A stretch of 64,000 nucleotides of DNA from contig LLKB01000001.1 in NCBI GenBank assembly GCA_001414325.1, positions 1,291,156-1,355,155 on the forward strand. Reading direction: 5' to 3'. This stretch comes from Butyribacter intestini (lineage in GTDB: Bacteria > Bacillota > Clostridia > Lachnospirales > Lachnospiraceae). Position 1 is the first letter of the stretch, and every line of letters begins with the position of its first letter. A program made the translations under genes and the position numbers. Below the pieces are notes generated by a model. It saw only the letters and a program-made list of their open reading frames with translations. It did no database searches and was not told where the DNA came from. Shown here piece after piece: positions 3,139-4,980 of the stretch.

Positions 3139-4236
3139 TTATTTCTGCAAAGCCATATTTAGTCCGCCGGCTATTGCTTTTCCGATAAAAAATATCTGCT
3201 CGTCAATATCTTTAGGTGTCACAAACAGACCGCTGTATTTGTCATTTGACATTCCATTTAAAAATATGTCAGTTTCCTCCTGAGAAAATCCCTGCTTAAG
3301 AAGCGTCTCCTCTATACAGTCATATGCAACCGTAGCCATTGATACAACTGTCGGCACACCTATCGCAATCACCGGAATTCCCATGACATCCCCGTTTATC
3401 TCTTTTCGCCTATTTCCAACCCCCGCACCTGGTGATATTCCCGTATCCGTCACCTGAATTGTATGACACAGCCTTTCAGTATGTGTTGAGCAGAGTGAAT
3501 CTATAACTATAATGCAGTCAAAATCCCCTTTGCACACAATATTTCTTATTATGTCGCAAGTCTCCATTCCTGTCTGCGACAACACTCCCGGTGCTATGGC
3601 ACATATTTTTTCAGGGACTATATCTATATACTCCACAACTTTATTACCGAGCATATCAGGCGTCGCATATCTGTTGCCAAGCCCCGCTATCATTATTCTT
3701 TTATCTGCTTTATCTCTGCTTACTGTTATATTATCTATTTTTATTTCACTATTCTTTCCATATATTCTTTTTTTATTTGATTTATCACACTCTTCATTTT
3801 CTCCTGTTTTACCTTTCTTTATCCTATCATTATCTTCATCTTCTTTATTTTTCTTCTGATTTTCCCAATCTTCGTTTTTTTTATTCTTCTTTATATTTAT
3901 ACTCTCATCACCTTCACCCAATACACTCCCTGCCACTTTTCTGTTCTTACTTACTTTTTCAACAATAATGCTTTCCACAATCCCTGCCAAAACTTTTTCA
4001 ATTCCTGTCTCGTCACTTTTTTCCCACTCTCTATCTGAAAATTCAAGAGTAATATATTTTCCTACCGGCTTTCCCATCGCTTTCATGCCATGTTCATCCT
4101 TAATTTCAACCTCCGTCATAGAAATTCCTGAAATGCCGGTATCTCTCTTTATTATCTTAACTCCTGAAATCTCTACATTATCATCCGGAAAACTCTCCCT
4201 GACTTCAAGAGCCAAATCTGTCACTCTGCTAAGCAT
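3139..4236 (-). CDS. gpr: Germination protease GPR (spore protease)
   Basis: GPR is the tetrameric forespore protease that degrades small acid-soluble spore proteins at germination; it is made as a zymogen with a short N-terminal propeptide. Family landmarks are VTDLALEVRE at the N-terminus, KAMGKPVGKYITLEF near residue 52, GLGNRYATPD near 185, TDTGISPGAGVGN and GIPVIAIGVPTVV. The ATG at 4236 is chosen because GGGAGGAAATT precedes it directly; an upstream in-frame ATG at 4290 lacks such a site. The protein has 365 residues. It is odd in carrying about 70 residues (roughly 97-168) of nearly pure Lys/Glu/Asp/Asn sequence between the N-terminal part and the GLGN core, where family members normally run on directly. 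Confidence 0.95.
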   Translation of the reverse strand: MLSRVTDLALEVRESFPDDNVEISGVKIIKRDTGISGISMTEVEIKDEHGMKAMGKPVGKYITLEFSDREWEKSDETGIEKVLAGIVESIIVEKVSKNRKVAGSVLGEGDESINIKKNKKNEDWENQKKNKEDEDNDRIKKGKTGENEECDKSNKKRIYGKNSEIKIDNITVSRDKADKRIMIAGLGNRYATPDMLGNKVVEYIDIVPEKICAIAPGVLSQTGMETCDIIRNIVCKGDFDCIIVIDSLCSTHTERLCHTIQVTDTGISPGAGVGNRRKEINGDVMGIPVIAIGVPTVVSMATVAYDCIEETLLKQGFSQEETDIFLNGMSNDKYSGLFVTPKDIDEQIFFIGKAIAGGLNMALQK

Positions 4237-4422
4237 AATTTCCTCCCAAATATAAGCTGTGTTAATTGCGAAGATAACGATGTTTTTCAATCACACGATT
4301 ACTCATAAAAATAAATTTTTCCATTAATATATCTAAAATAACCACACCTTTTAACTTCTCCAAAAAAAATATAAATATACAATTACAAGTACAAACAAAT
4401 TTTCCACCACACCAAACTCACA

Positions 4423-4568
4423 GCCGAAGCAAAAGATTATCATACTGACCGAAGGGCGTTGAAACCGTGTCGGTACTTGGCAGATGTATTTTATCTGCCT
4501 ATGTACTGCTACACGCTTCTCCGAGTGAAAGCGTCCCTGAGCGTAGCATGATAATCCTTTGCTTCGGC
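4423..4568. repeat. Intergenic palindromic repeat with four-way-junction fold
   Basis: The ends are 21-base inverted arms (4423-4443 and 4548-4568) that match at 20 of 21 positions. Between them are three further self-complementary arms: CCGA (4449-4452) with TCGG (4470-4473); GTAC..GGCAGAT (from 4473) with ATCTGCC..GTAC (to 4506), with a 7-base loop; and GCTACACGCTT (4508-4518) with AAGCGT..GTAGC (to 4547). The result is an outer stem and three arms, a cloverleaf-like shape. It lies between gpr and rpsT, just upstream of the rpsT promoter. A 76-codon open frame on the minus strand across it is best seen as a by-product of the repeat. Confidence 0.75.
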
Positions 4569-4610
4569 GTCCGTTCGCCAAAAAAATTATAAAAAACTCT
4601 CAAAAACCAC

Positions 4611-4639
4611 TTGACAAACACCTTAAAAATCACTATGAT
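4611..4639 (+). promoter_or_regulatory. Sigma-A promoter of rpsT
   Basis: TTGACA at 4611-4616 and TATGAT at 4634-4639 are separated by exactly 17 bases, followed by an A-rich start region. This is a near-consensus housekeeping promoter about 75 bases before the rpsT ATG. Confidence 0.85.
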
Positions 4640-4656
4640 AAATGAGTATGTTTACT

Positions 4657-4680
4657 TCAAAGCGACCGTGTCCGGTTTGA
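4657..4680 (+). promoter_or_regulatory. Hairpin in the rpsT leader
   Basis: The 5' leader holds TCAA (4657-4660) pairing with TTGA (4677-4680) and, above a 4-base bulge, ACCG (4665-4668) pairing with CGGT (4673-4676) around a TGTC loop. Many ribosomal protein mRNAs are autoregulated by such leader structures; that role here is inference. Confidence 0.4.
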
Positions 4681-4716
4681 TGAAACAAAAGATTTCACAA
4701 TTGGGAGGTGTAAGGA

Positions 4717-4980
4717 ATGGCTAACATTAAATCAGCAAAGAAAAGAATTTTAGTTGATCGCAGAAATGCAGAGAGAAATAAAGCAATCAAGTCTAAAGTT
4801 AAGACAGCTATCAAAAGTGTTGATGCTGCTATCTCAGCAGGAGACAAGGACGCTGCTTCTAAGGCTTTAACAACAGCAATCTCTGAAATCAATAGAGCTG
4901 CAAGCAAAGGTGTTTTCCACAAGAAAACAGCTTCAAGAAAGATTTCTCGTATTACAGTTGCTGTAAATAAAATCGCGTAA
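4717..4980 (+). CDS. rpsT: 30S ribosomal protein S20
   Basis: S20 binds 16S rRNA early in 30S subunit assembly. The 87-residue lysine/arginine/alanine-rich protein starts MANIKSAKKRI and contains the family pattern KSKVKTAIK and KGVFHKKTASRKISR. The length is normal. The ATG follows a strong GGGAGGTG site. The gene stands alone, with its own promoter and terminator, and is divergent from gpr as in other Clostridia. Confidence 0.98.
   Translation: MANIKSAKKRILVDRRNAERNKAIKSKVKTAIKSVDAAISAGDKDAASKALTTAISEINRAASKGVFHKKTASRKISRITVAVNKIA

Follow-up and report, generated by a model that had tools for sequence, protein, structure and literature searches.

The 146-base palindrome between gpr and rpsT in Butyribacter intestini is probably a compact-subtype copy of a Lachnospiraceae superfamily of structured MITEs, in which the arms would be recopied by template switching while the tip would be kept by selection. 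Copies of this family are numerous, and they differ among themselves and between sites. Two of its subfamilies carry terminal inverted repeats and target duplications, and at sites fixed in two species the paired positions of the fold change in a coupled manner.

The element in the gpr–rpsT gap

The palindrome occupies positions 4423–4568 of the window, by which we mean the whole 64,000-nucleotide stretch of DNA analysed. It is intergenic and flanked by divergent genes: the germination protease gene gpr (minus strand, 3139–4290 as longest frame) and rpsT (plus strand, 4717–4980). The products of both match the expected Pfam families, Germination protease and Ribosomal protein S20, respectively, which confirms the location given in a preliminary description of this DNA. 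The outer arms described there are likewise real, with 20 of 21 positions of 4423–4443 and 4548–4568 paired and a single mismatch, A4434/C4557. On the plus strand the segment has a folding energy of −66.4 kcal/mol, compared with a shuffled mean of −35.7 kcal/mol (z −8.9); for the minus strand the shuffled mean is −33.4 kcal/mol (z −9.9). None of 200 shuffles folded as well as the segment on either strand. Its parts, together with the nearest neighbouring signal, are as follows.

4421–4575, plus strand: whole element, matched by covariance model R1 with 158.1 bits (own genome G000:C1:1295576-1295730)
4423–4443, plus strand: P1, 5' outer arm; 20/21 pairs with 4548–4568; covaries across copies
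4548–4568, plus strand: P1, 3' outer arm; partner of 4423–4443; covaries across copies
4453–4460, plus strand: P2, 5' strand; GGGCGTT plus the preceding base; partner 4530–4538, with one bulged base
4530–4538, plus strand: P2, 3' strand; partner of 4453–4460
4461–4520, plus strand: P3, long inner hairpin; 4461–4476 with 4503–4520; consensus pairs, helices 6 and 7
4479–4485/4493–4499, plus strand: P3 tip, GGCAGAT/ATCTGCC; helix 7
4525–4532, plus strand: P4, short side hairpin; GNRA loop GAAA at 4527–4530, as read from the sequence
4418–4422, plus strand: 5' end motif CACAG, just outside and at the arm foot; CAG is common to the compact subtype
4567–4575, plus strand: 3' end motif GCGTCCGTT, common to the compact subtype in several genera
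4611–4639, plus strand: likely rpsT promoter (TTGACA, 17, TATGAT), 11/12 consensus matches; a neighbour outside the element

Within P2, the first four pairs are formed in 98.3% of cases (15 copies), and the last four constitute the wobble-rich helix 5. In the window copy, three steps of the lower P3 helix are weak or do not pair (A4462-C4519, C4465-C4516 and G4461-T4520). The likely rpsT promoter begins 35 bases past the element end; shuffles of the same region hold 1.5 promoter-like sites on average, and chance alone would be expected to supply one match of this kind. Four reading frames across the element were without a match in Pfam or NCBIfam at E ≤ 1.

A conserved fold with a three-way junction

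Two alignments inform on the conserved structure. In A4, which comprises 15 copies from two genomes and was built without reference to structure, RNAalifold identifies 51 pairs, 36 of which show at least one double change. In A6, where 83 copies were fitted to R1 and the alignment consequently favours structure, 95.6% of 4062 pair cells form a standard pair, compared with 58.4% when shuffled and 34–48% when slid; double-change cells number 1611 versus 454 in shuffles. Further pair types in A6 were not above shuffles (126/500). We note that A6 represents 83 of 98 matches, taken from a reduced set of sources with a cut-off of E ≤ 1e-9. It omits antisense matches typical of palindromes (L011, L007, L009, L003 and L002), as well as the weak L037–L039, L013:1640-1792, L096 and L093.

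What the copies conserve is a three-way junction on a long stem, made up of the arms P1, then P2, the long hairpin P3 and the GNRA side hairpin P4. Of the inner arms put forward in the preliminary description, GGCAGAT/ATCTGCC covaries as helix 7 across the A6 copies. The arm GCTACACGCTT/AAGCGT..GTAGC fared differently: its cells are paired in 60.0% of cases over 15 copies, compared with a shuffled mean of 60.6%, and 416 of 500 shuffles reach as high. The consensus partners of the same GCTACACGCTT stretch pair in 93.3%, versus 80.0% in shuffles, with none of 500 shuffles as high. Since this fourth arm performs no better than shuffles and the consensus partners lie well above them, the proposed four-way junction is replaced by a three-way junction.

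In the 83 copies, 78 P4 loops could be read (5 unread), and 75 of them conform to GNRA. The loop search itself required an initial G and a final A; the third position is a purine in those 75. Outside helix P2b, 3747 plus-strand cells contain 82 G-T pairs, 34 A-C and 105 other mismatches. The excess of G-T over A-C identifies the plus strand as the better-folding one, although wobble pairs are still rare: G-T makes up 2.2% of pairs outside P2b and 24.8% within it, P2b being an internal control and the sole standard against which the wobble share was judged.

Copy number and host range

By blastn, the window element hits its own genome in 6 places, at 72–100% identity, and one relative in 9. Using R1, we count 47 copies in the own genome, 39 in the genus genome G008 and 74 in G014. 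Within the genus, 23 of 28 genomes have R1 matches; across the family, 96 of 299 genomes do (95 of 298 genera), the family-wide counts being lower bounds on account of strict filters. The expectation of many copies in Lachnospiraceae is thus borne out and, because homologues are many, the element is no single-copy sequence.

Wider samples were searched as well. Of 291 genomes sampled across the class, 7 match, every one of them from the same family, and a second covariance model, R2, built from 83 copies, matches 63 of 392 genomes in an order sample, all from that family. The exact core pattern is present in at least 116 stretches of a named collection. Among the 80 matches listed, 61 are labelled Lachnospiraceae, Acetatifactor, Eisenbergiella, Kineothrix, Lachnospira or Herbinix; the other 19 carry the labels Clostridium, Clostridiales, Eubacterium, “bacterium”, one Bacillus and four Gastranaerophilales MAG. 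From these named matches we infer that the host family is Lachnospiraceae.

Phage and plasmid records contain no match for the element, on which grounds phage or plasmid carriage of the window copy was rejected, and the exact core pattern had 0 occurrences in viral contigs, a narrow test. In Rfam 15, 0 families reach the gathering threshold anywhere in the window; near the element there are 3 matches at E ≤ 10, all far below threshold, and membership of an Rfam family was rejected accordingly.

Site occupancy and gene context

Among the 28 genus genomes, rpsT could be located in 25, and the element lies beside it in 1 of these 25 loci, that of the own genome. The germination protease gene adjoins rpsT in 19 other loci, all of which are without the element. 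The start-to-start gap between gpr and rpsT measures 480 bp here versus 169–355 bp in the 18 relatives with a placeable gpr start. A mobile palindromic element, one of the possibilities raised originally, is supported by this empty gap in 19 relatives, by the 47 model copies and by the nearly identical copies that a relative carries within target duplications.

The orientation of copies relative to their neighbours is uneven. Among stop-facing cases, the facing stop codon of a convergent gene is at most 40 bp away from the 3' end in 33/46, 32/50 and 15/21, and equally close to the 5' end in 5/32, 3/34 and 1/10. The underlying sets of 68, 82 and 30 copies overlap and include related copies, and gene context was taken from a crude ORF caller, skipping ORFs that run into the element. 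In young copies (16 and 9) an orientation bias is unclear, at 4 versus 3 and 2 versus 0. Since young copies show no clear bias, the preference of the 3' end for stop codons may arise from selection against the opposite orientation.

Subfamilies, ends and target duplications

In genome G023, the hairpin is housed inside a 274-bp unit with inverted ends GATGTTRRGG, with two odd lengths of 315 and 510. Target duplications of 7–8 bp are found in 11 of 15 copies read and are absent in 4; a 66-base end of the unit has 42 matches in this genome, several of them at contig ends. The own genome harbors a second subfamily of 213–214 bp units with ends TAGGNNNTTGCGAAACT, and exact duplications of 10–14 bp accompany 6 of the 8 copies in which both ends were found. 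Its end motif occurs 82 times in the own genome versus 2 times for a reversed-pattern control; in 7 further own-genome copies tried, no TAGGNNNTTGCGAAACT-type ends were found.

Two ends with the motif of these 213-bp units also frame a longer element at L343 (G000:C5:716900-719300). Here, the ends are 1757 bp apart and enclose minus-strand ORFs 482–1129 and 1141–1938, with an apparent 10-bp duplication, judged by eye. One ORF holds Pfam DUF772, the reading frame being split in two pieces, and both ORFs match NCBIfam IS1182 weakly (24 and 32 bits, cut-off 270). Core-less units of 44–89 bp are present in the own genome as well. Because break points differ between copies, we read these units as deletions and dropped the interpretation that they are empty sites; precise insertion may apply to some.

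In G064, units of ~480 bp carry two divergent hairpins (L086–L092), and in G014 (L096–L110) divergent pairs are frequent, the two members being of different subtypes. Given that the G023, own-genome and G064 units differ, one and the same tip resides in units with differing ends and duplications. The copy in the window is of the compact subtype, with ends CAG / CGTCCGTT, which is found in several genera. No target duplication was found for it, and its ends do not form a clean inverted repeat. As expected of a MITE, the body is short (155 bp), non-coding as judged by Pfam and NCBIfam, and present in 47 copies; terminal inverted repeats and target duplications are seen in two subfamilies, and neither was found in the compact subtype, that of the window copy.

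Change in place at sites shared by two species

Of seven candidate sites common to two species, four, with flanks matched by blastn, were counted. Structures counted from both sides give 442 pair cells, 341 of them unchanged. Double changes that restore a Watson-Crick pair number 38 versus 5.6 expected under independent change, and single changes number 50 versus 118.5 expected (both directions). With 45 of 442 cells broken, maintenance of the arms is not strict. Transitions account for 8 of 15 double changes and 10 of 17 unpaired changes, small numbers whose similar shares hint weakly that there is no preferred route through G-T. The alifold counts were left unused, since they exclude broken pairs by construction. 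We note that at one counted site, L123/L014, a long match is available for one flank and ~40 bases for the other. L141/L046 was left out for poor alignment, and L128/L013 because the L013 copy is newer and of different sequence, lying next to what is left of the shared copy. At this last locus, the truncated shared copy and the second, different copy (L013, 1472–1624 and 1640–1792) stand side by side opposite L128, as if the site had been hit twice.

A fifth site, L122 (G000:C5:711413-711563)/L016 (1473–1625), was removed from the count as inverted; including it gives 62 double restorations versus 10.8 expected, with transitions in 15 of 25. Its flanks match only with one record reversed, and this match reaches within a few tens of bases of the element. 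The cores, in turn, match best in their own orientation (100/150, versus 75/145 reversed). The arms have GCAGG and TATATATTTT in common, and L122 bears the 3' end motif ACGGACGC at both ends. From the sequences of this one site, the core looks as if it had been flipped in place; a second insertion in the same place but in opposite orientation could be the alternative.

Origin of the paired arms

Each copy is a long palindrome with a conserved tip, built of freely varying P1 arms, then P2, the long hairpin P3 and the small GNRA side hairpin P4. The subfamilies with terminal inverted repeats would be moved in trans by DDE transposases, for one of them a putative IS1182-like enzyme, whose matches lie below the family cut-off. 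The arms would be kept complementary by the replication machinery, which may use either arm as the template for its partner (quasipalindrome template switching) and may by the same route flip the core in place. The tip would be kept by selection, perhaps as a plus-strand RNA or as a protein-bound single strand. In E. coli reporters and in yeast, template switching between inverted repeats homogenises the arms and inverts the spacer (PMC7202029, PMC8604942). As these are known template-switching products, we favour recopying at the DNA level and consider that the arms are probably recopied from each other in this way; the inverted core of L122/L016 likewise points to a DNA-level process. The double changes do not by themselves prove template switching, as selection can also produce them.

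An extension of this idea, to which we give rather little weight, is that the tip itself forms a fold-back while the DNA is being replicated, from which one flank is copied anew onto its counterpart. If true, any neighbouring sequence, a transposon end included, would become an inverted repeat, and new MITEs would be made from whatever transposon end lies beside the tip. Such a self-palindromising tip would explain why one tip is found in units with unrelated ends and duplications, why drifting arms stay complementary and why a core may flip, as at L122/L016.

In a doubtful though possible alternative, the family is a functional structured RNA, acting in cis or in trans, that spread by transposition, was domesticated and is selected in each place. 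The plus-strand GNRA tetraloop, with its third-position purine in 75 of 78 loops, the predominance of G-T over A-C on that strand, the persistence of copies at shared sites with pairing kept, and the far more frequent position of the 3' end near convergent stop codons would all be consistent with such an RNA. Wobble pairs, however, make up just 2.2% of cells outside P2b, the host gene is not consistent and presence is patchy, and at the window copy no terminator-like site or promoter-like site of its own stands out. The young copies are without a clear orientation bias, and the core inverted between the matching flanks of L122/L016 argues for change at the level of DNA.

The position of many copies directly after a stop codon would also suit a bidirectional intrinsic terminator, but this reading, like that of an ordinary chance hairpin, is scarcely credible: there are 0 terminator-like sites in 4230–4760, on which grounds an intrinsic terminator was rejected, no T run is seen by eye beside the arms in the copies printed, and the core is homologous in many genera. 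That the hairpin is REP-like and mobilised by a Y1 tyrosine transposase (RAYT) appears very improbable as well. Palindromic and intergenic copies, often in divergent pairs (G014, G064), and CGTC at one end recall the CGTC-tagged REPs of PMC3733652. Yet size and arms misfit, the own genome contains no Y1 transposase (PF01797), and across the 299 family genomes one is found in 48/96 element-bearing versus 126/203 other genomes (Fisher p 0.06, in the wrong direction). With no PF01797 in the own genome and no positive link over 299 genomes, we rejected mobilisation by RAYT.

Relation to known repeats

The bcr1 repeat of ~150–167 bp is intergenic, with mobile features and a conserved stem-loop, and is not known beyond one species group. 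The Lachnospiraceae element resembles it in size (~150–167 bp), intergenic location, mobility and conserved stem-loop, but differs in sequence, in its hosts and in being family-wide. Tables of PMC2267715 name bcr1 as a repeat of the Bacillus cereus group. Among the bacterial MITEs, a review (PMC2229807) covers ERIC, NEMIS/Correia, RUP and YPAL, and relates that the orientation of ERIC matters for its effects on mRNA. The present family resembles them in being small (100–200 bp), non-autonomous, intergenic and palindromic, with a long stem-loop and, in some, terminal repeats and target duplications. Unlike these MITEs as described there, its outer repeats vary freely and its tip is conserved across ~100 genera, units with the same tip differ in ends and duplications, and covariation is extensive.

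CGTC-type REPs are presented in PMC3733652 as sequences of 20–40 bp, with stems of 8–9 bp and loops of 4–5 bases, from phyla other than Firmicutes. The likeness to GTAG- and CGTC-tagged REPs lies in palindromic form, divergent pairs, location near stop codons and the CGTC with which the compact subtype ends on one side, and, as for the CGTC type, no dedicated transposase was found. The window element, in contrast, is ~155 bp long, with a 21-bp outer arm and a branched fold, and falls outside the REP definition given there. A survey of human microbiomes lists 250 palindromic candidate RNAs, 20 of them without a terminator (PMC8040213), and the Lachnospiraceae hairpin family could be among those candidates.

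The literature searched, mostly open-access, yielded no description of this family. As far as searched, the kind is known, that of a structured MITE-like repeat, and the combination of a conserved branched tip, drifting arms, differing ends and family-wide spread is new. Long palindromes are usually thought to be unstable in bacteria, and covariation alone is normally taken as proof of a functional RNA. Here, dozens of palindromes per genome have arms that drift and yet stay matched over speciation, and they provide natural replicates for asking whether pairing is kept by RNA selection or by DNA template switching. The family is thus a warning, or a test case, for inferring functional RNA from covariation. 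It furthermore serves as a family-wide marker, probably gives rise to spurious small ORFs from unannotated copies, and hints at how MITEs with different ends can arise around one module.

Other arrangements of the units were also observed. At L093 and L094 (G137), copies form direct tandem arrays, with three copies at a 187-bp period in one case and two abutting copies in the other. At L346 (G000:C5:545000-545800), a hairpin-bearing unit has its core split by ~100 bases of other sequence.
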